Source: Chrysochromulina tobinii (taxonomy: Eukaryota; Haptophyta; Prymnesiales; Chrysochromulinaceae). From it: a stretch of DNA of 23,625 nt. The notes under the pieces are model-generated. The model did no database searches. It was given only the letters and a program-made list of their open reading frames with translations, and had not been told where the DNA came from. Shown here piece after piece: positions 1,330-21,462 of the stretch. Position 1 is the stretch's first letter. Each line of letters begins with the position of its first letter. The stretch covers positions 1 to 23,625 of the forward strand of contig JWZX01002593.1 in assembly GCA_001275005.1 (NCBI GenBank), given 5' to 3'. Position numbers and translations under genes: made by a program.

Positions 1330-2409
1330 TCAACCTGCAGACGATGTGGGGTGCAGTAAATACCTATCCGAACTCGCGTTGTGAAGGTGGAGCCGCTGAT
1401 CTTGCGCGCCCCACAGGTCGAGAGACGAACCCCAATGTGAAGCTCTCGAAGCGTTCGCAACTATGGCGCCTGGAATAGCGACGTATTTGTTGAGCAGCAA
1501 CAGGCGATCGTGTGCCAGCTTGGGCCTGTTTGGCTCGTTCAACCTCACCTGCTCGCATGTTGCCTTGCGTATGCCACTCCAACCCGCCACCTTGCGCTCG
1601 AGAAGTATGCGATAGAAACCCCGCGATGTGCGAAACCCTTCGCCGAGGAAACTCGGATTCGCCGCACTGTCGTTGCGAACGCTCACCAGTCCATTGAATA
1701 ATGGTTTGCAGCCCGACCAAGTCCAATATGAGTATCTGGTACTGCGTATGGTCTGCATCAAGGCAGAGAGAGCCTTTGCCAGAGCAGGCTCACCTGGGCT
1801 TGCGACCATGAAGTGAAAGTTGGTCTGCGCGTGGTAGAGGCTGCCAGAGGTGACAAAGATATCGTCTGGCCGAACGAATGATCGCAAGCTCGCCACTGGC
1901 TCTACATCGGCGTCAGAGTATACGCCCCCGTGAGCCAGGATGAAGGCAGTCCGCCAGAAGTCGCTCTTGATGACGCCGTACGGAATGCTGGTCCAGAGCT
2001 TGTGAGCATCGTGCCATAGGCTATTCGACCTGGAGAAATCACGCAAGAAGCTGTCACACTCCGAATCGTTGTGAACCTTGAGCGAAAACCCTGGGTTGAG
2101 GCCGCTTGCGATCCACGTGCGCTGTAGGAAGCGTGCGGGGTCGTTGCCGGTGAACTCACAATACTTGTTCGTCGGCCACTTATCACACGCAGTGTCTGGG
2201 AGCGTCATGTGGATGTGCTTCGGAATTGCCTCCGGCCAGGGCATCTGAGGGAAACGTGTGTTCATGAGTGCCACCCGACTGTTTTTCAAGCAAAATGCCG
2301 TCGGTTCGCGCATCGTGACGTTCGTGCACACGGTTGGCGCGTGCGATTCGCACGATGTTCGAAACAGTTCAGAGAGAGATAAACGACGGTTTCTTTGCAT
2401 GCAACGCAT
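1330..2409 (-). CDS. GT32 (OCH1-like) glycosyltransferase
   Basis: Predicted glycosyltransferase of the DXD-containing GT32 family, which transfers sugars from nucleotide-sugar donors, usually in the Golgi. The family signature is clear: IPKHIHMT near the N-terminus (the usual IPKxIHQ/xW element), then SDFWRTAFILAHGGVYSDAD with the metal-binding DAD at residues 166-168. Near the C-terminus is HWGSS, matching the conserved His region. ATG at 2409 is chosen because the frame upstream opens only with a TTG codon; ATGs at 2313 and 2265 are alternatives, and a start at 2313 gives 327 aa. No signal anchor is visible, which is unusual for a Golgi enzyme, so a 5' exon carrying one may have been missed. 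It is divergent from the RECQ1 gene. The family call is firm; the acceptor and donor are unknown. Confidence 0.75.
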   Translation of the reverse strand: MRCMQRNRRLSLSELFRTSCESHAPTVCTNVTMREPTAFCLKNSRVALMNTRFPQMPWPEAIPKHIHMTLPDTACDKWPTNKYCEFTGNDPARFLQRTWIASGLNPGFSLKVHNDSECDSFLRDFSRSNSLWHDAHKLWTSIPYGVIKSDFWRTAFILAHGGVYSDADVEPVASLRSFVRPDDIFVTSGSLYHAQTNFHFMVASPGEPALAKALSALMQTIRSTRYSYWTWSGCKPLFNGLVSVRNDSAANPSFLGEGFRTSRGFYRILLERKVAGWSGIRKATCEQVRLNEPNRPKLAHDRLLLLNKYVAIPGAIVANASRASHWGSSLDLWGAQDQRLHLHNASSDRYLLHPTSSAG

Positions 2410-2587
2410 AATAAGTCTCGGAACATGTATGGGCTTTCGTGTAAGCACCCCAAATTTTTTACATATTTGTCGAGGGGCCGCTGGCGCGGCGCACGCGCGC
2501 CTTTTCGGGCGCAAGCGCGTTCACAAGAGCCGCGCGGCGCCGCGCGCGGACGCTTCGCCACACAGGGCGGAAACATCGCGCCCGTCC
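2410..2587. promoter_or_regulatory. Putative bidirectional promoter, GT32 / RECQ1
   Basis: At most 178 bp separates the two divergent starts. It contains an AT-rich block (about 2452-2470, TTTTTTACATATTTG) inside otherwise GC-rich DNA. The position fits a shared core promoter. No specific factor site is claimed. Confidence 0.35.
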
Positions 2588-4804
2588 ATGGAGCCCTCCG
2601 ATGTGGACCCGTCGATCGCCGCGCTCGAGCGCAGCCTCGCACTCAATCGTGCTCGGCAGCGCGACCTGCGAGATGAAGAGGCGGAAATCTGTAGCCAGCT
2701 TCAAGAACTGAGGAGCTCTGCGAAGCAGGCGGCCAAGGACGCGGCCGAGGCGCACCATGTTCTAGTGGACTGGACGGGCACCTTTGAGTGGGATGCGACT
2801 GTGGCCGACTTGCTCAAATCGCGATTCGGCCACGACTCCTTCCGTCCATTGCAACGCGAAGTGATCAACGCAACACTCTCCCGACGAGACACATTTGCGA
2901 TCTTGCCAACCGGTTCGGGCAAGTCGGTAAAGAGCGCGACTCAAACTCATGCTCTCAGCCTTCGGCTGCCTCACACCGCTCGCGTTCTGATAGGCGAGCT
3001 GCAACGATTCTCGCCCATGCAGCTGCTCTTCCAACTCCCGGGCTTGCTTTCTCCGAGCGGTCTGACAGTTGTTGTGAGCCCGCTGGTGAGCCTGATGGTG
3101 GACCAGGTGGCGAGCTTGAGCCAACGCGGCGTGCGGTGCGCCTTGCTTGCGGCTGACCTCACCGACCGCACCCAATCGACGGAAGTACATCACCAGATCG
3201 AGGACCCGGCCACCTCGGGCTTACGATTCCTCTACGTGACGCCCGAGCGCATCGCCAAGTCGAAGATGCTCGTGAGCAAGCTTCAAAAGGCATACCACGG
3301 CAAGATGCTGCTGCGCTTTGCCATCGACGAGGCACATTGCGCGTGTGCGCAGGGCCACGACTTCCGTCCGGACTACCTCTCGCTCGGCACGCTGAGGACG
3401 ACCTTCCCCGAGGTGCCCATTCTCGCCCTCACAGCGACTGCGTCTGAGAGCGTTCGTGCCGACGTCGAGCGATCCCTCCAGATGGACCATTTGAGTGCGC
3501 GCTTTCGTGGGCACTTTGACCGACCGAACATCAAGTACAGCGTGCGCAAGAAGCTGGACGAGGCGGCGCTCCTAGACGAGATGGCTGCCCTCGCGCTGCG
3601 CGACTTCCCGTCGCAGGCGGGCATTGTGTACACTCTTTCGCGCGCGGATGCGGAGAAGGTGGCAGACGGTCTGCAGCGGCGCGGCGTGCGCTGCGCGCCG
3701 TACCACGCTGGCGTAGACGCACTGTCACGCCAGAGCATGCAAGCGGCGTGGCAAAGCGGGCGGATGCAGATCGTGGTGGCAACGATCGCGTTCGGCATGG
3801 GCATTGACAAGCCGGATGTCCGCTTCGTGTTCCACCACAGCATGTCCAAATCTCTCGAAGCTTACTACCAGGAGAGTGGCCGCGCTGGGCGTGATGGCAA
3901 GCCAGCCGAGGCGATCGCCTGGTGGTCGCCGAGCGATTTCTATCGGCTGGCCTCCTTGGCGTGCGATACGTCCGATCGCGCGGCCGCATGGCGAGCCCTC
4001 GTTGGATCTGGTCGCTTCTGCGAGATGAGGCACTGCTGCCGCCGCGAGTGCCTCGCCTCGCTCTTTGGACAGTCGCTGCCGGCTCGGGTGGGAGCCGTGA
4101 GCCTGGGCCAGTGCTGTGATGTGTGTGCCGCGGCGAGCGCCGAGGCAGCGGCACCCTCGGCATCGATCGCGCATCGGAGCACCCTGGAGGAGATGGACGT
4201 GAGTCCGCTTGCGATCGACGCGCTACGCTGCCTCGCCGAGCTCAATGATGCCGCCGCCGCCGAGGGCGTGACCGACGGCGGCGCAGCGCCCGCCAAGCTT
4301 ACCGCTCTGAAGCTCGTGGAAAAGCTCGCCTCGCGGCTGAGGCACGCCGACGCAAAGCTCAGCCGCGAGGCGTTGGAGCACCTCGTGTTGCGTCTTGTGC
4401 TTGCCGATGCGATCCGCGTGCACTTTGCGTTCACGGCTTACTCGATCCTCACGTACCTGTTCACGCGACCATCACTCGCGAGCGCCGTTCTGGGCGACCC
4501 AGGCGCCACTGCGCACTCGGCTGGTCTGCACGCTCTCGCCTGCTCGCTGCCGTCCACCCTACTTCCAATGGCGAAGGCTGCAAAGGCCAACAAGGGAGGC
4601 GGCAAGCGCAAGGCAGCTGCGGCGAGTGACGTGCCGCCACAGTCGCGCAAGCGGGTGCTGCCGGAGAGCGATGGCAGTGACTTTGAGGTGGAGCAGCCGA
4701 TGAAGCAGACAGGCCGAGACGCAGCAGGTGGCATGCCAGCGGGCCGCGGAAGGATTGCATCAGCTGGAGTCGAGGTCGTTATCATTGACGACGACGAAGA
4801 ATAG
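2588..4804 (+). CDS. RECQL: RECQ1-type RecQ DNA helicase (one intron)
   Basis: ATP-dependent 3'-5' DNA helicase for nuclear genome maintenance. Spliced as 2588..2926 joined to 3023..4804 it encodes 706 aa. Order: N-terminal coiled coil (about 5-50) as in RECQ1; motif 0 FRPLQ; Walker A LPTGSGKS (Lys112); motif Ia VVSPLVSLMVDQ; DEAH 215-218; motif III LTATAS; motif V VVATIAFGMGIDKPDVRF; motif VI QESGRAGRDG (about 395-405). The zinc-binding Cys set follows (C446, C451/C452, C456, C477/C478, C481), then the RQC winged helix with LTALKL and FTAYSILTYL, both resembling human RECQ1. The tail is Lys/Ser-rich and ends in an acidic VVIIDDDEE. YVTPERIAKSKM and HHSMSKS also match RECQ1 rather than BLM or WRN. 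ATG 2588 is chosen because the coiled coil begins there; the frame upstream is low-quality and overlaps the divergent gene. Oddity: the aromatic-rich loop lacks its Trp (Gln223). Confidence 0.92.
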   Translation: MEPSDVDPSIAALERSLALNRARQRDLRDEEAEICSQLQELRSSAKQAAKDAAEAHHVLVDWTGTFEWDATVADLLKSRFGHDSFRPLQREVINATLSRRDTFAILPTGSGKSVKSATQTHALSLRLPHTARVLIGELQRFSPMQLLFQLPGLLSPSGLTVVVSPLVSLMVDQVASLSQRGVRCALLAADLTDRTQSTEVHHQIEDPATSGLRFLYVTPERIAKSKMLVSKLQKAYHGKMLLRFAIDEAHCACAQGHDFRPDYLSLGTLRTTFPEVPILALTATASESVRADVERSLQMDHLSARFRGHFDRPNIKYSVRKKLDEAALLDEMAALALRDFPSQAGIVYTLSRADAEKVADGLQRRGVRCAPYHAGVDALSRQSMQAAWQSGRMQIVVATIAFGMGIDKPDVRFVFHHSMSKSLEAYYQESGRAGRDGKPAEAIAWWSPSDFYRLASLACDTSDRAAAWRALVGSGRFCEMRHCCRRECLASLFGQSLPARVGAVSLGQCCDVCAAASAEAAAPSASIAHRSTLEEMDVSPLAIDALRCLAELNDAAAAEGVTDGGAAPAKLTALKLVEKLASRLRHADAKLSREALEHLVLRLVLADAIRVHFAFTAYSILTYLFTRPSLASAVLGDPGATAHSAGLHALACSLPSTLLPMAKAAKANKGGGKRKAAAASDVPPQSRKRVLPESDGSDFEVEQPMKQTGRDAAGGMPAGRGRIASAGVEVVIIDDDEE
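2927..3022 (+). other. Stop-free 96-nt intron in the RECQ1 Walker A region
   Basis: It starts GTAAAG and ends CCCATGCAG. Removing it joins GKS directly to LLFQLPGLLSP, exactly the family pattern (GKSLCYQLPAL in human RECQ1). The 96 nt are a multiple of three with no in-frame stop, so an unspliced transcript stays in frame and gains 32 residues right after the Walker A Ser. Confidence 0.9.
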
Positions 4805-12902: not shown

Positions 12903-13356
12903 TGTCACCTCCGACCCCGGGGAGCGAAAAGTGGCGCTGTTGTGAGCGCTGTTGCCGGACCCATGGGCCTACCATGGCCCATGCGCCATAGAGTCCGCCA
13001 CGTCGACCGCTGCGTGCTCCGAAGACAGGAGAGGGTTGTCCGCGTGGCGCGTGATTTCATGCGTGACTGTTCAGGTGAGCTCTTACACGGCCGCTGGCGG
13101 TCGGCGGACGACGCGCGCGTGCTCCGCACAAAAAGCGCGCTCGGGTGTGCCTGTGCCGGCCCGCTCCTTGGATCTTATACTCGTAAACCGCGTTGTAGCA
13201 TGTCACGAATTTGATGTTTTCAGTTCAACCACAAAAACAAAATTATATAACCTTATGTAGTTTCGTGAAACTCGTCAAAATCGAAGGCAAAGGTGTTCAC
13301 GCGACTGCGTCTCGCGACATTTCTCCGCGCTGAGACACTTTCGCCACTCGATCGCG
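12903..13356 (+). other. Intergenic, 454 bp
   Basis: The first part is the 3' flank of the carrier with a perfect inverted repeat. The last part (about 13205-13290) is strongly AT-rich (AACAAAATTATATAACC), the best candidate for the PFK-2 promoter. No gene is seen. Confidence 0.5.
12962..12983 (+). repeat. Perfect 8-bp inverted repeat
   Basis: CATGGGCC and GGCCCATG flank a 6-nt loop (TACCAT), 60 bp after the carrier stop. It could form a hairpin in the 3' UTR. Confidence 0.6.
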
Positions 13357-15225
13357 ATGTCTGACAGGTCTACCGAAGCAAAGCGTGATGCCTCGTCCCA
13401 GCCCCCGCTGGTCAAGTTCCTCTCCGAACTGCCACAGAGTTTGTTTAAGGCCATGAGCATCGGACGAGATGCGTCGCCGAAGACCGAGCCAAAGTGGGTG
13501 CTGCAGGAGGCACTTGGGCAGGAGAGTGCAGACGGCAATGCACAGCGTGAAGAACAAGTCATCGCCGCACTGAAGACCTTGCAGACCCATCTGCCCCATC
13601 TAACGCCCGCAGAACAATCGCGCGTGAAACAGGAGCTTCCATTCGCCTCGCCCGAGTGGCTGGATGGCCTTGCCATCTCGGCGCGTGTCAGGGCTGACGG
13701 CTCCGGGTCCTCGAAGAGTGAGACGTCGATGAGCCAATTGTTTCACGATGGCTCGGTCCACGGCGGCCTCGCAAGGTCTTCGGGCACCGACCGTCGCAAC
13801 AGGGACAGCGTGACCAACCAGGTCCCGGTGATGAAGCGCGAGGAAAGTATCAACGAGATGACCGAACGCGTCGTCGAGACCGCCACGGACGCTCGTCTTC
13901 GCCTGACGCCCGACGCGGGCCGGCTGATCCTCGTGCTCGTCGGCCTGCCAGCGCGCGGCAAGTCCATGCTCGGCTACAAGCTCGGCAGGTTCTTGGGCTG
14001 GCGCGGCTACCGCACACGTCACTTCAAGGTGGGTGACCGGCGCCGCGAAGTGTGGAATGAGTCTGGCAATCAGTCCGGCGAGCGCCTTCCGCAAACGTCC
14101 GCCTCCTTCTTCGATGGGACGAAGGCGTACGCGTCGATGACCCGCGAGCAGCTCTCGCTGCAGGCCTTCGACGACCTTCTCAAGTGGATCGAGGCCGAAG
14201 ACGGTCAGGTCGCCATCTTCGACGCGAGTAACGTCACGATCGCCCGCCGCGCCAAGCTGAGCGAGAAGGTGCAAGCCCTCAATGCCAAAGGGACCACCTC
14301 GGCCGGCATCGTGTTCATCGAGAGCGTCGTGACAGACCCCGATGTCATCTCGAGCATGTGCACGTGGAAGGTTCGTCACTCCGAGGATTTCAAGGGTCTG
14401 GGCGAGAACGAGGCGCTTGCGGACTTGCAGGAGCGCATCTCACATTACGAGAAGCAGTACCAGACAGTGCGAGAGGTCGAGGGGCCATACACCAAGATGT
14501 TCGATCTGCGTGCGAAGGTGCATGCTTGCAACATCTATGGGCGAATGGCCAAGACGGTGCTGCCCTACCTGCTTGCCATCCACGGAATTGCGAGGCCAAT
14601 CTTCATGATTGTCGTCGATGAGGAGAACACCGCCCATGCCGAGACCAACATTGAGGCCGGGCTGGCTCAATGGGCACGCATCTACCCCCGCGCAAGCGAG
14701 CTCCTCATTCTCACCTCCGCGGCGCCACGGGCTGTCCAGGCGGCAGAGGCGCTCGTTGTGGCGGCCAAATGTGCGCCAGCGGCCAAGCGCGGCTCGATGA
14801 CGCCACTGCTGCACGCCGCCGAGTCGCCCGCCGCTCGCGCCGTGTCGGGCGATGGCGCCGGCACCTTCGAGGGTCAGTTTGGCGAGTCGGTCGCAAGTCT
14901 CGTTGCACGGCTCGAGCCGGTGGCGCTCGAAATTGAGGCCGCGGTGCAGCCAGTGGTGCTGGTGGCACACGAGGCATGCTGCCTTACCCTGCGCACGCTG
15001 CTGATCGAGCCTCAAATTCGACCCATCTCTGAGCGCGAGCTCATCGACCGTCACTCGACGATGGCCTTCCACAGCCCCGAGGCGCCGCGTTTGATCGAAT
15101 TTGTCACCATCGAGAGCGGCGGCTACTCTGAGACGGTGCATATGCTCTCAACGGAGCCGCCCCTCAACGGAGCCGGTCGGCTTGGCGCAGAGGGTGCTCG
15201 GCTGGTCGGCTTGGGCGCCCTGTAA
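13357..15225 (+). CDS. PFKFB: 6-phosphofructo-2-kinase with degenerate bisphosphatase domain
   Basis: A 622-aa homologue of the bifunctional enzyme controlling fructose-2,6-bisphosphate. Residues 1-185 are a Ser/Arg/Glu-rich extension with no recognised domain. The 6PF2K domain (about 186-410) is intact: Walker A GLPARGKS (Lys202, Ser203), FKVGDRRR, FDASNVTIARR, IESVVTDPDVI and YTKMFDLRAKVHACNIYGR. The C-terminal histidine-phosphatase half (about 411-610) has lost its active-site core: IYLCRHGES of PFKFB is IFMIVVDEE here, with Arg to Val419, His to Val420 and Gly to Asp421, and the GRIGGD loop is missing. Secondary elements remain: Arg458 in TSAAPR, GES (Glu510) and the second His (VLVAHEA, His538). 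It probably makes but cannot hydrolyse F2,6BP. ATG 13357 is the first in frame. Confidence 0.9.
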   Translation: MSDRSTEAKRDASSQPPLVKFLSELPQSLFKAMSIGRDASPKTEPKWVLQEALGQESADGNAQREEQVIAALKTLQTHLPHLTPAEQSRVKQELPFASPEWLDGLAISARVRADGSGSSKSETSMSQLFHDGSVHGGLARSSGTDRRNRDSVTNQVPVMKREESINEMTERVVETATDARLRLTPDAGRLILVLVGLPARGKSMLGYKLGRFLGWRGYRTRHFKVGDRRREVWNESGNQSGERLPQTSASFFDGTKAYASMTREQLSLQAFDDLLKWIEAEDGQVAIFDASNVTIARRAKLSEKVQALNAKGTTSAGIVFIESVVTDPDVISSMCTWKVRHSEDFKGLGENEALADLQERISHYEKQYQTVREVEGPYTKMFDLRAKVHACNIYGRMAKTVLPYLLAIHGIARPIFMIVVDEENTAHAETNIEAGLAQWARIYPRASELLILTSAAPRAVQAAEALVVAAKCAPAAKRGSMTPLLHAAESPAARAVSGDGAGTFEGQFGESVASLVARLEPVALEIEAAVQPVVLVAHEACCLTLRTLLIEPQIRPISERELIDRHSTMAFHSPEAPRLIEFVTIESGGYSETVHMLSTEPPLNGAGRLGAEGARLVGLGAL

Positions 15226-16842: not shown

Positions 16843-19800
16843 CTAGACCGAAAGCACCAAAGGTGCCGTAACGGGCGCCTTCTGTGTTCCTGCAGGCTCT
16901 GTGACCCAGGCACTGGTAGCAGGCACGCGCTGCGACACTTGGGTGCCACTGATGGCTGTGGCGGCTACTGACACGCGCGCGCGTCCCATGAGGGACGGCG
17001 GTTCGGCCGAGGGCGGCGGGTAGGCCCCAGATCCGTTGGAGCCCGGGGCTCCATGCGGCTGCGCAAGCATCGGCTTGCTGGCCATGGGCAGCAAGCTCTG
17101 CGGTACTCTCGCAGTCGCCATCTGTGGCGGCGTGTACATGGGCATCATTCCCAGAGCCACTCCCGGTGGCGGCACGCCCGAATGCGTTTGCCCGAGGGCA
17201 TCTGAGGGCATGATGCCGAGTGAGGCGGCGGCGCTGGCAGCGGCGGCGGCAGCGGCGGCGGCGGCGGCGGTGGCGGCGGTGGCGGCGGCGGTGGCGGCGG
17301 CGGTGTTGTAACCTTGCGGGATCATCGCAGCTTGAGCGGTCATTCCAGCTTGCGCGGACAACACATTAGCCATCATAGCATGCGGGGCATTCACCGCCGT
17401 TGTGTTCTTTCGCGAGCTCCGCTGCCGCTTGCCCGCGCGTACCAGCTCGATGCAGGTCTTGCCGAGCCGCTGGCAGCGGTGGCACGGATTGCCCTCGCAC
17501 GCCGTCTTCGCCTTGTGACACTCGTAGCATGCCCACTTCTTCTGACTCCCATCGGGCAATGTTGTCCCGTCTCCGTCGTGCGATTGCACCGGCGCCGGCG
17601 CCGGCGCCGCCGCCGATGCAACGCGAGTGGCGACCATCCGAATCGCTGGCGCCACCGCTGGCATGGCGCTGCTGCGAGCCTCATTGGAAGCAGCCTCGCC
17701 CTCGTTCAAGGAGGAAGCGTGCGTACTCTCCGCCGCCAGCTGGTGGCCCTGCTGCTGGAGTATCGCGTACACGCCGCGGCCGCCATAGACCGTCGGGCCG
17801 AAGACGGCGGCCGCAGACTTGCCGTGGCGAGGGCGCTGTGCCGGGCGCTCCTCTTGCAGCGCTGCTGCCATCGCATCGGGGGCTTGTGGCAGGGCTTCAG
17901 AGGGGTTGGCAGCCGCGGCCTCGAGCTCCGAGTGAAGTGCGTGCGGTCCGAGCAAGCGCTGCAGCTTCGCGAACGGAGCACCGGTCGCGTCGAAGGGAGC
18001 GTCGGCCTCGTCGAGCTCCATATCTGAGCTGAACATCAGGTGGTCGAGATCGAAATCGGCTCGGCCTTGGCTCATGAGGGGGGGGAGATCTCGGGGAGGG
18101 AGGTCATGAGATACCCCCCCCGCCCCACGTGTAACGGCGTCCCCTCCGGGTGCCCTCTGCCAGAACGGCGAGTTGGGGCCCATCCCCTCTGCCAGTCCGC
18201 CATAGTAGCTATTGCAGCTGCCCGCGGCCTCAAAGGACGAGTCGCCCGTTGAATGCGCGCTGGGATCGTCCCCCATCTCCCCGCCGAGATGAGCCGTCTC
18301 GCCCGACTCGCTCCCATCGAGCAGTGGCTGCTTCTGCTCCGACCGAGGCAGCGAAGGACCCGCGGATCGCGACGCTGTGGTGGATGGCCCTACCGGTAAG
18401 TCCTCGCTCTCCGTCGCGAGGGCCGAGAGGCTACCGATGCCTCGCAGCACGGCGGTGCCGCTGCTCGTCATGTTCGTTCCTTCAATAGATGAGAATAAAG
18501 GATGGACGTCCGAAACGTCTGATGCCCCATCGGCTCTGCGGCCGTTGGCGCCGCCGCAGAAGGAGCCGTTGCCGCTGGTGCCTGAGGTGCTTCTGGCAAG
18601 AGTAGGAGCGGCAGCATCCGTCGGCCCCGTTGGCTGAGGTGCCTCCTCGATCACGGGGGAGTCGAGGAGCCCTCGAATGCCGTACGCGCCGGCGATGGTG
18701 CCGCCGAGCGGCTTCTGCCCCTCTGCAGTGGTCGCGACCACAGAGGCGAAGCAGTTGGGGCAGAGGAACCTGGTGCCGCCATAAACGAACCCCATGGCGA
18801 GATTGTGCGAACAGCCGCTGCATGTCTCCGTGCGGCACGCAGTGGAACGGCCGTGCGCAGCGAGCGTGAAGGATGACGCGATCGCTCTCACAGAGCTGAA
18901 CGCGCCCTGTAGCCGGTGACCACAGAAAAAGGGTTCTGCGTGCACGAGGGGCGACAGGACACGTACGAGGCGTGTGAGTGCGGGGCTCGTCGCGAGAGAG
19001 TGAAGAGTCGGGCGGGCAGGTGACGGGCGGCGTCGAGGGCGGCGTTGAGGGCGGCGTCAAGGGCGTCGGGTGCGGCGCGATACGCACGAGTCGCGATGAA
19101 GGCGATGAGGCAGGTCTTGATCGGCACCAGCGAAAGCTTATCGTGTTTCTTGAGGACTTTCATTAAGGCTAAGAAATTGAAGAGGGCAAATCGGCGCAGC
19201 TCGTCCAAGTCCGCGCTCACCTGGCAGAAGATCGCAATCGCCTGTCGCATGTCTTGTGGCACCAGGGGCGACTTGATGAGCTTGCCAAGCGTCGCGGCCG
19301 GCGTGGGCAGCGTGCCGTCAAAGTCAAACACGCCCTTCACTTTGGAAGGGCTGCCAAGCAAAGGGATCACCCTGAGAGGGGTCGCGCAGCACATCACCAA
19401 CATGAGCGAACGCCTGGCACGCGCCGCCTGCTTGCCGCATGGCAGCAGCACCTGGCTGCAGCGCATGAAGCATTGCTAACATGCCGCATGCACGCGCGCG
19501 TTGGAAGCGCGCTGTGAAAGCTCGCCACCTGCCGCTTCGCGCTTCGCCCGCCTTTCCAAGGGGGCAGGTCAGGGGTGCTTTTAGGGTTGGGGGGTTGACC
19601 CCCCTACCTAGGGCTGCTCGCACCTATTTAGATGACTGCTGAGTTCTTTGGACTTCTCGATGAAAAAGCGGTTCACCTTCAGCAGCTGCAGCAACAGCGA
19701 CGACAGGAAGAGGCCCTCGAGCTGCGGGCGAAAGAGAAGCATGGAGCCGTGGTCAGTGCATCCCTTAAGCCCCGGCCCGCCGTGCACGGGCACCACGCAC

Positions 19801-20021
19801 CTGGGCATTGCCCTCTGTCTGATTCTCGACGTCGGTCGGCGACAGTTGACGCAGGATCTGCTTCAATGCCTTGTAGTCGACATAGAAGCTCGTCCACTCG
19901 GAGTTGGTGGAGGCATACGCCACGAGCTGCGAATATGTACGGGGTTCGCGCTTTCAGCAACCCATGGAGTGGGATGGGGCATGAGGGCATGCTGCGCGTG
20001 TACCTCTTTGCCAAACTTCAT
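16843..20021 (-). CDS. SPX - zinc ribbon - Zn(II)2Cys6 fusion regulator, five exons
   Basis: Exons on the minus strand: 20021..20004, 19926..19801, 19721..19624, 19371..19088 and 18935..16843, total 2619 nt, 872 aa. Residues 1-180 are a complete SPX domain: MKFGKE at the start, EWTSFYVDYKALKQIL, KVNRFFIEKSKEL, LRRFALFNFLALMKVLKKHDK, ending IATQPFF (176-179 = QPFF). The Tyr/Lys and KxxKKxxK residues of the inositol-polyphosphate site are present. A zinc ribbon follows, C214-x2-C217-x16-C234-x2-C237. Then comes a long Ser/Gly/Pro/acidic linker, with DFDLDHLMFSSDMELDEAD as a candidate activation segment. The Zn(II)2Cys6 cluster is C645, C648, C655, C660, C663, C670 (CX2CX6CX4CX2CX6C) with a basic KRQRSSRK next to it, then a poly-Ala, Met/Pro/Gln-rich tail. 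All four introns are GT-AG with matching phases (0, 0, 2, 1). The last exon has no ATG before the middle of its zinc ribbon (first at 18795), so it cannot easily be a separate gene. Inferred role: a nuclear transcription factor that reads phosphate status through inositol pyrophosphates. Confidence 0.85.
17224..17306 (-). repeat. GCC/GCA repeat encoding poly-Ala
   Basis: An interrupted trinucleotide repeat encodes an Ala/Thr then Ala-only tract of about 25 residues in the C-terminal tail of the SPX-zinc-cluster protein. Such tracts are prone to length variation. Confidence 0.85.
18936..19087 (-). other. Intron 4 of the SPX-zinc-cluster gene
   Basis: Donor GTGCGT, acceptor CACGCAG, 152 nt, phase 1. 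The split codon C+AA gives the Gln of QPFF, the conserved end of SPX domains. This is the junction joining SPX to the DNA-binding half. Confidence 0.85.
19372..19623 (-). other. Intron 3 of the SPX-zinc-cluster gene
   Basis: Donor GTGCGA, acceptor CCCTCTCAG, 252 nt, phase 2 (AG+G gives Arg). It is the longest intron of the gene and contains a strong hairpin near its 5' end. Confidence 0.75.
19588..19606 (-). repeat. G6/C6 hairpin inside intron 3
   Basis: On the sense (minus) strand GGGGGG-TCAA-CCCCCC forms a 6-bp stem with a tetraloop, extendable by GGT/ACC across an A-A mismatch. It starts about 20 nt from the 5' splice site. Confidence 0.7.
19722..19800 (-). other. Intron 2 of the SPX-zinc-cluster gene
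   Basis: Donor GTGCGT, acceptor TTTCGCCCGCAG, 79 nt, phase 0. It contains stops in the exon 2 frame (TAA and TGA), so it must be removed. Confidence 0.85.
19927..20003 (-). other. Intron 1 of the SPX-zinc-cluster gene
   Basis: Donor GTACAC, acceptor ATATTCGCAG, 77 nt, phase 0. It separates an 18-nt first coding exon (MKFGKE) from the rest of the SPX domain. Confidence 0.85.
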
Positions 20022-20328
20022 CGCGACGAGAACGTCGCCCCAATATTGTACCGCAAAGGGATACTGTAGATCCGCAAAAGGCGGCTGAAAGCTGCGGCTC
20101 GTCGCACACTCAAAAGTCTCACCAGAAATGCCTAATTCGAAAGTCCGACGGCGCTCGAATGTTTCGACGAAACCAGAGACCGTAAACCGTTTCAACAAAT
20201 ACTTGACCACCTCGACAGCGCCTCGCGACCTTGAGATGAATGGAGGGTGTGGTTCAGTAGTTTGATCGAGTATCACAACTTCGCGATGTGTGTGTGTCTG
20301 AGCGGCTGCGAAATGGATTCATTTATCC
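20022..20328. promoter_or_regulatory. Divergent promoter region, SPX gene / GT-like gene
   Basis: 307 bp between divergent ATGs. It holds two CGG triplets in direct orientation (20082-20084 and 20095-20097, 10-bp spacer) about 60-75 bp from the SPX start. CGG is the usual half-site of Zn2Cys6 proteins, but it is common in GC-rich DNA. There is a short TGTGTGTGTG run at 20287-20296. Confidence 0.35.
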
Positions 20329-21462
20329 ATGCTCCATCCCCGATCGCATCGAAACCAGCCAGATTGCTACGTTGCAATCCTCATTAGCGGACTGCTGCGC
20401 TACGCAAATGAAACATTCCAGGAGAACCTGCCCCACCTGCAAGAGCTGAATCCGCACTGCACATTTCATGTGTTCGTGTCGACCTCTTCCATATCTACAT
20501 TCGGCTCTGAAGATATCAAACACGCAAGGAGGTTCATCAGCAATGACACTGCCAGCAATGGCATGCAAGCAAGCACGAATGTCAGCATATTTTACCCGGA
20601 AAAGAGTCGCGCGCCAACGTCGATCATGATCGAACAAATCTACGGCTCGTACCTCAAGGATGCCAGACTGGCCGCTGGTCCCTTGGAAACCTCGAAAGGC
20701 ATGTTGGCCACTAATCCGTCTGCTCGAGAGCGAATCATGCGGTGGCGTATGCAAGATGTCTGGCACCTGATGGAGCCGCACATGGAAACGTACCGATACA
20801 AGTACGCCTTATGGATGCGCCCCGACGCGCTTGTTCGCTTGACAGTGCCATTTGACCAGGTTGAAATCGGCGAGGACGTTCACATGCTTGTCTGCTTTCC
20901 TCTCCGGGATCACGCATGCAGTTGGTGGGGCACGCCGAAGGCCATGGGTTGGTTGTTGAAGGACGGGAAAGTTGCCGCGCTGAGGAACAAGTGTGAGTGC
21001 GACCCGCAGCCGACCGGCGTCCCAAAGCCACCCGACGTGCGGAAGTTTGGCTTCAGTGATGACCATCTCTTCGATACTACGAAAGCGTGCAGAGACCCCC
21101 CAGGCGCCATGTCCATGGTCTACTGCGCGCTTCTCCAGCACATGTGGGCATCCAGTCCAAGCCGTACTTTCTACCTCGTTGGCTACGGAGCAGCTGTCAT
21201 GAACGGGAGGCCTCCGTGCGTACACAGTCGTTGTGCGCAGGATCCTGCAAGTAGTCTCTTCGGCTTCAACCAGACGGTCGGTCCATGGTCGAAGTGCTCA
21301 ACCAGCCCGCAGAATGACGCGGCAGTAGCGGCGGACGTTGCACAGACGATGCAGGAGCACAAACCTCAATGCACCGTGCGGAAGCCGTTTTGGGGTCCCT
21401 TCTCCCCGCCATACGGCCAAGGAGTCGTGAACAACCATGGCTACCCCAGTTACTCCCCCTAG
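20329..21462 (+). CDS. Glycosyltransferase-like protein
   Basis: A 377-aa protein with the layout of poorly characterised nucleotide-sugar-transferase-like proteins of algae and bacteria. The N-terminus YVAILISGLLRYANETFQEN resembles the SGxLRxxxxtxxNl start of such enzymes, followed by CTFHVFVSTS. The motif YKYALWMRPDALVRL matches the Y(D)xxxxxRPDxxf signature. Further on are SDDHLF (candidate acidic site) and several Cys, suggesting a lumenal or secreted protein, but no signal peptide is visible. ATG 20329 is the start; the other nearby ATG (20313) is out of frame. The acceptor is unknown. Its stop is only 7 nt from the first ATG of the next frame. Confidence 0.65.
   Translation: MLHPRSHRNQPDCYVAILISGLLRYANETFQENLPHLQELNPHCTFHVFVSTSSISTFGSEDIKHARRFISNDTASNGMQASTNVSIFYPEKSRAPTSIMIEQIYGSYLKDARLAAGPLETSKGMLATNPSARERIMRWRMQDVWHLMEPHMETYRYKYALWMRPDALVRLTVPFDQVEIGEDVHMLVCFPLRDHACSWWGTPKAMGWLLKDGKVAALRNKCECDPQPTGVPKPPDVRKFGFSDDHLFDTTKACRDPPGAMSMVYCALLQHMWASSPSRTFYLVGYGAAVMNGRPPCVHSRCAQDPASSLFGFNQTVGPWSKCSTSPQNDAAVAADVAQTMQEHKPQCTVRKPFWGPFSPPYGQGVVNNHGYPSYSP

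Follow-up and report, generated by a model that had tools for sequence, protein, structure and literature searches.

A gene in a 23,625-nucleotide stretch of the genome of Chrysochromulina tobinii (contig JWZX01002593.1, positions 1 to 23,625, hereafter the window) encodes, in one polypeptide chain, an SPX domain and a fungal-type Zn(II)2Cys6 (Zn2Cys6) cluster, and of this architecture we are almost certain. We also consider it likely that the gene specifies a one-chain transcription regulator that senses inositol pyrophosphates (PP-InsPs), with the SPX domain covalently joined to the cluster; the transcription-regulator function, taken by itself, we would call probable with slightly more reserve. 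The evidence comes from the window, from paralogues elsewhere in the same genome and from related proteins that place the gene in a haptophyte family.

Results

The gene lies on the minus strand at window positions 20021-16843, where five exons spliced in phase give a protein of 872 amino acids with a single stop, at its end, and the sequence-only reading of this DNA, which had proposed this very join, holds in that respect. All four introns (77, 79, 252 and 152 bases) run from GT to AG, with acceptors ending in CAG in all of them and donors beginning with GTGCG in three. Exon 1 (20004..20021) supplies the start codon and MKFGKE, the first SPX residues, position 1 of the Pfam SPX profile falling on residue 1; exon 2 (19801..19926) carries the N-terminal part of the domain, with Y24 and K28 as equivalents of the phosphate-binding cluster; exon 3 (19624..19721) encodes the SPX core helix; and exon 4 (19088..19371) encodes the C-terminal SPX helices, with K152, K155, K156 and K159 in the motif KVLKKHDK. 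Beyond intron 4 (18936..19087, 152 bases, GTGCGT..GCAG), exon 5 (16843..18935) holds the end of the SPX domain (QPFF), half of a RING finger, a linker, the Zn2Cys6 cluster, a basic stretch, a low-complexity tail and the stop. P0004, a JGI-sourced protein of 700 amino acids that begins at the equivalent of exon 3 and is 44% identical to the window protein, aligns without a gap over both the exon 3/4 junction (SSHLN/RVIPLL against GEHLERISPII) and the exon 4/5 junction (FIAT/QPFF against FVATQPFH), the latter bearing out the earlier claim that the splice to exon 5 completes the SPX domain at QPFF. These gapless alignments favour the 872-residue form, and the 901-residue form that an alternative in-frame acceptor of exon 4 at 19455 would give was therefore rejected. 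Retention of intron 4 is predicted to yield a 241-amino-acid, SPX-only product, and splicing could thus toggle between SPX-only and full-length forms.

That the fusion is real does not depend on the splice model, because the same genome contains paralogues that need no splicing, because two database proteins carry both domains and because the spacing over exons 4 and 5 is that of the family. One paralogue, L024 (contig C849), has SPX, RING and Zn2Cys6 in a single uninterrupted frame of 699 amino acids, and another, L025 (contig C2237), has SPX and Zn2Cys6 without a RING in a single frame of 500 amino acids. Both P0004 and P0031, a relative of L025, score above the Pfam cut-offs for SPX and for Zn_clus, with 28.8 bits for Zn_clus in P0004 and a bare pass in P0031 (21.1 against 21). 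Counted from KKHDK to the first cysteine, a stretch that spans 18935/19088, the spacing is 59 residues in seven proteins, namely the window protein, P0004, L024, P0008, P0010, P0017 and P0018, and 61 residues in P0011, P0012, P0014 and P0015, a comparison with ten chosen relatives that leaves out P0006, P0007, P0009, P0013, P0016 and P0019; in P0009 and P0016, insertions between the two points are visible in the family alignment (A1). On these sequence grounds, the SPX-Zn2Cys6 fusion is not a splice artefact.

The SPX half of the window protein matches the Pfam profile with an E value of 6.4e-11 and 43.3 bits against a cut-off of 27.8, in agreement with the sequence-only reading, and by sequence it also matches the SPX domain of XPR1 (E 2.3e-6). 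In AtSPX1, the residues given as PP-InsP binding in PMC7810988 are Y25, K29 and K139 together with K136, K140 and K143, and the window protein keeps all six, as Y24, K28 and K155 together with K152, K156 and K159. Both SPX ligand motifs recur in L024, L025, P0006-P0014 and P0031, the other tabulated proteins being incomplete at one end of the domain or at both. In an AlphaFold model of L024, the first 180 residues, which form the SPX domain, have a confidence of at least 87 in most blocks of 10 residues, and this model has 19 PDB matches at E ≤ 0.001 with SPX structures first, headed by rice SPX1-PHR2 and by 5IJJ, the complex of the Gde1 SPX domain with inositol hexakisphosphate (InsP6). The window SPX domain would be expected to bind PP-InsPs.

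The other half is the six-cysteine cluster CYECHKAKTACEGNPCHRCQRLGKTC (17452..17529, minus strand; residues 645-670). All six Zn2Cys6 cysteines that the sequence-only reading had seen are present, in the spacing C-x2-C-x6-C-x4-C-x2-C-x6-C, and they are invariant both in A1 and in an alignment of the zinc modules (A3; 17 of 18 modules, P0021 omitted), which has 15 invariant columns. The cluster is classed as Zn2Cys6-like by this pattern and its relatives, not by its Pfam score. It is followed by the basic stretch RAGKRQRSSRK (17407..17439), a putative DNA contact or nuclear signal, and we infer that the cluster binds DNA. At E ≤ 1, Pfam lists only SPX and Zn_clus in the window protein, which thus shows no MYB-type domain. 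Among the handful of Zn2Cys6 clusters that PDB sequence searches returned, the top match of the window module is Pho7 from Schizosaccharomyces pombe (S. pombe), with weak E values of 0.004 for the single module and 0.0025 for the profile. The next matches of the single module are Mdm4, Put3 and Leu3, all at E ≥ 0.12, and the profile has Leu3 next, at E 0.032. Reference titles in PMC11253589 describe Pho7 as a Zn2Cys6 factor that takes part in phosphate homeostasis, and the similarity of the cluster to it is suggestive only. Within the family, the window module has a mean identity of 0.72 (minimum 0.53) to 17 other SPX-linked modules, against a mean of 0.45 (maximum 0.52) to nine stand-alone modules of the same genome, a comparison from which the odd pattern of L017 was left out. 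Because the window module is nearer to SPX-linked modules than to stand-alone ones, a single fusion event fits these data without being proven by them. Stand-alone zinc-cluster genes thus occur in this genome as well; a Zn_clus scan listed ten matches, with the window gene, L024 and L025 not among them. Two stand-alone frames, L010 (C1785) and L013 (C1731), have two Zn2Cys6 clusters in tandem.

Between the two halves, the sequence-only reading had placed a zinc ribbon, and this assignment has to be revised. The window segment CSGCSHNLAMGFVYGGTRFLCPNC (CSGC...CPNC, 18751..18822, minus strand) has the length and cysteine spacing of the RING segment CSICLDVLSMPVVLPCTHRFCYGC in L024; it keeps ligands 1, 2, 5 and 6 at the family spacing, with Gly and Arg at ligands 3 and 4, and the CPLC that provides ligands 7 and 8 is gone. 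In the RING cross-brace, ligands 1, 2, 5 and 6 form zinc site I and ligands 3, 4, 7 and 8 form site II. P0004 has the same half-RING form. A profile of the SPX tail and RING aligns to window residues 170-242 without a gap at 20.1 bits, where 2000 shuffles of the post-SPX part reached 7.6 at most, and to residues 139-211 of P0004 at 28.6 bits, against at most 13.6 in 2000 shuffles; these scores owe part of their height to the SPX tail, and the first profile was built from 12 of 13 rows, with P0009 dropped. Since spacing and SPX-tail alignment favour a remnant of a RING, an unrelated zinc ribbon was rejected as first choice. The complete set of eight ligands that defines NLA-type SPX-RING proteins is not found in the window copy, nor does a Pfam scan at E ≤ 1 find a RING in it, whereas L024 has one. 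With four of its eight RING ligands lost, the window copy is probably a ligase-dead paralogue; the RING-bearing members are likely to be E3 ubiquitin ligases as well.

To chart the family, a protein search was made with the SPX and RING part of L024 (E ≤ 0.001). Half of the 24 matches listed have SPX, RING and Zn2Cys6 in one chain, eight of them with both SPX motifs (P0006-P0012 and P0014, among which P0006 and P0007 are near-copies of L024) and four beginning inside the SPX domain, with only its later part (P0015-P0018). The others are P0019-P0021, with a RING or part of one plus Zn2Cys6 in chains that begin after SPX; P0013, with SPX and RING and no cluster in the listed chain; P0022, likewise without a cluster; P0023, a fungal SPX protein; and six animal RING proteins (P0024-P0029). 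Named members of the family come from Prymnesium parvum (P0008), Haptolina ericina (P0010) and Scyphosphaera apsteinii (P0012), the last two being Prymnesiophyceae within the Haptophyta; P0010, P0011 and P0012 are labelled MMETSP or EukProt, and are presumably transcriptome-derived. None of the matches listed shows the fusion in a named non-haptophyte, many of them carrying no name, and a scan of viral contigs with A1 gave 50 stretches that fit a pattern, none of which was confirmed. In relatives the two halves are not always separate genes, and the fusion is older than the window gene, as three named haptophytes and the single-frame paralogues have it too.

The canonical chain runs from SPX through a RING, a disordered linker, the Zn2Cys6 cluster and a basic tail to a short acidic/hydrophobic C-terminal motif. 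This motif, for example LDWSGADFSSFL or YNLSTDDLLSLL, occurs in all 14 chains with a whole RING and cluster, by a pattern that was written after viewing A1 and is descriptive rather than a test; it is a helix in the L024 model (predicted local distance difference test, pLDDT, 61-64) and could be an activation motif. With the supposed zinc ribbon better read as a decayed RING finger, the parent architecture was probably SPX-RING-Zn2Cys6. Two pairs have SPX and Zn2Cys6 without a complete RING, namely the window protein with P0004 and L025 with P0031, and a tree of the SPX domain (17 rows; P0005 was dropped because the motif used for cutting is absent from it) supports the half-RING pair at 98/99 and the no-RING pair at 98/98. 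Ten of its 14 inner branches are unresolved, and the tree does not settle the order of events.

A scan of the same genome for SPX lists nine matches on six contigs, not including the window gene, whose SPX domain is split over exons; together they give at least seven SPX loci. Among the other frames, L027 (G000:C1175, 5250-6791, minus strand) joins SPX without a break to a ribose-phosphate pyrophosphokinase in a single open frame (Pfam SPX 43.9 bits, Pribosyltran_N 166 bits, Pribosyl_synth 101.5 bits), and is a candidate fusion of SPX with phosphoribosyl pyrophosphate (PRPP) synthetase. L026 (G000:C551, 3-1241, minus strand) is an SPX-VTC frame resembling polyphosphate polymerases, and L029 (G000:C1161, 4212-5423, plus strand) is an SPX frame in which Pfam at E ≤ 0.1 finds neither a zinc cluster nor a RING. 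The window itself has three further frames, all on the plus strand: one of 386 amino acids at 20302-21459, divergent from the SPX gene, with no Pfam match at E ≤ 1; one at 13294-15222 with a 6-phosphofructo-2-kinase domain followed by a weak, sub-threshold histidine-phosphatase match, perhaps a bifunctional enzyme; and one at 2249-4801 with DEAD and Helicase_C domains and a sub-threshold match to the RecQ zinc-binding domain, which appears RecQ-like.

Discussion

The combination of an apparently intact PP-InsP sensor with a zinc cluster in one chain suggests how phosphate status might reach a promoter. In phosphate-replete cells, PP-InsPs would fill the basic pocket of the SPX domain, and the filled pocket would alter how SPX contacts partners or the remainder of its chain, with the result that at high PP-InsP the cluster would be masked or the protein ubiquitinated by its own RING; when PP-InsPs drop, the DNA-bound protein would control phosphate genes. 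SPX would in this manner relay the PP-InsP level in cis to a DNA-bound chain, with full members adding a ubiquitin-ligase output, and in the window copy the ligase output would probably be lost while sensor and DNA binding are kept. Gating of DNA binding by PP-InsPs, the direction of control, the E3 activity and its loss are all steps that we infer. For the family as a whole, we tentatively go one step further, with somewhat less than even confidence, and propose a haptophyte one-component system, in which one chain senses PP-InsPs and binds DNA, the full form also ubiquitinating itself or its partners at the promoter, and in which duplication has given full-RING, half-RING and no-RING paralogues that separate ligase output from DNA-binding output.

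Several results weigh against this picture. The Zn_clus match of the window protein is below the Pfam cut-off of 21 (E 0.0088, 16.6 bits), as is that of L025 (18.2 bits), and the nine RING-bearing members scanned fare no better, eight scoring 13.1-18.8 bits and P0014 not being listed. In the L024 model, confidence is 66-84 for the zinc cluster and low for the RING and the linkers, and a Foldseek search with the P0004 model returned no PDB match at E ≤ 0.001 (best E 5.8e-3), with Pho7 and RING structures appearing only at E 1.2 to 3.6. The C-terminal motif does not occur in the window protein, in P0004, in L025 or in P0031. As to the half-RING, when the RING is scored alone with its cysteines held fixed, the window segment reaches 8.6 bits, a value equalled or exceeded by 20 of 2000 shuffles (best 14.6), and P0004 reaches 12.1 bits, a value attained by none of 2000 (best 11.0). 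Because of these shuffles, a RING remnant is likely for the pair and only moderately so for the window copy alone.

How firmly the proposal stands depends also on three other explanations. The window gene might be two adjoining genes misjoined, the first coding for SPX only and ending near exon 4, the second coding for Zn2Cys6 and starting within exon 5, and it is true that the database proteins P0001 and P0003 begin inside exon 5 or its equivalent and that retention of intron 4 would yield an SPX-only product. We give this explanation next to no credence and have rejected it in view of the single-frame paralogues and of P0004, which crosses the junction without a gap; the family-like spacing across the junction speaks against it too, as do the relatives whose single chain holds SPX, RING and cluster. 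It is also very improbable, in our estimate, that the gene is a decaying paralogue, the remnant of an SPX-RING-Zn2Cys6 gene that has lost its RING and retains little function. RING ligands 3, 4, 7 and 8 and the C-terminal motif are indeed absent, and a long alanine tract is present, but the half-RING form is common to P0004 at 44% identity, neither the SPX ligand residues nor any of the six cluster cysteines have been lost, and the close relative P0003 is identical at 49 of 53 positions over residues 223 to 275, 44 of 45 in the zinc module, 303 of 357 in the linker and 162 of 186 in the tail.

A weightier explanation, which we nevertheless hold to be unlikely, is that the family consists in essence of SPX-RING ubiquitin ligases like plant NLA, with a Zn2Cys6 cluster that serves only to tether them to a protein or to chromatin; they would then degrade DNA-bound regulators and not be transcription factors themselves. 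SPX-RING proteins are already a known class; the RING is complete in 14 tabulated cluster-bearing proteins; and in A1 six of the eight RING ligand columns do not vary, the other two falling short only through the later start of P0020 and P0021. Against this, the window protein with P0004 and L025 with P0031 keep SPX and Zn2Cys6 without a complete RING, and no member aligned in A1 or A3 has lost a cluster cysteine. A PP-InsP-sensing transcription regulator remains the reading that we prefer.

If it is right, a receptor and a DNA-binding domain in one chain would make the shortest route from inositol pyrophosphate to promoter known to us, and haptophytes, which include ocean calcifiers and bloom formers, would have a named candidate for phosphate sensing. 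The sequence-only reading knew of no described SPX-Zn2Cys6 fusion, and we likewise found none among the open PMC (PubMed Central) papers listed, which does not by itself establish its absence from print. Zn-clus factors of the 'Fungal TRF' type have been counted in T. lutea, Pavlova sp. and E. huxleyi, and the main text of that paper uses the term SPX 0 times, so that the fusion is undescribed there (PMC4827209). An SPX-domain orthologue, of this or of another SPX family, is reported to be up under phosphorus stress in both haptophytes of one transcriptome study (PMC5513979). The architecture is easily overlooked, the zinc cluster being under the Pfam cut-off or unlisted in all nine RING-bearing members scanned, two of which have a UniRef label that reads only 'RING-type domain-containing protein'.

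Comparison with known systems shows what is shared and what is new. To our knowledge, the SPX domains of plants and yeasts sit in separate sensors, transporters, enzymes and ubiquitin ligases, and reach DNA only via a partner. Plant NLA, an SPX-RING protein of class IV, resembles L024, P0008, P0010 and other canonical members in having an N-terminal SPX domain and then a C3HC4 RING, and S. pombe Pqr1/Spx1 is another SPX-RING protein. Unlike these, the haptophyte family adds a C-terminal Zn2Cys6 cluster and a basic tail, while the window copy has only RING ligands 1, 2, 5 and 6, and L025 and P0031 show no RING. S. pombe Pho7, the nearest fungal factor by PDB sequence match, is like the haptophyte cluster in its six cysteines and basic tail, although the match is weak (E 0.0025-0.004) and the Pho7 chains in the PDB (59-61 residues) show no SPX or RING. 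A further parallel is offered by plant SPX1/SPX2 with PHR1/PHR2, where the same PP-InsP-binding SPX residues are likewise tied to a transcription regulator, PHR having a DNA-binding domain of the MYB type. In plants, however, sensor and DNA-binding factor are separate proteins, whereas in the haptophyte family they are parts of one chain, with a Zn2Cys6 cluster on the DNA-binding side.

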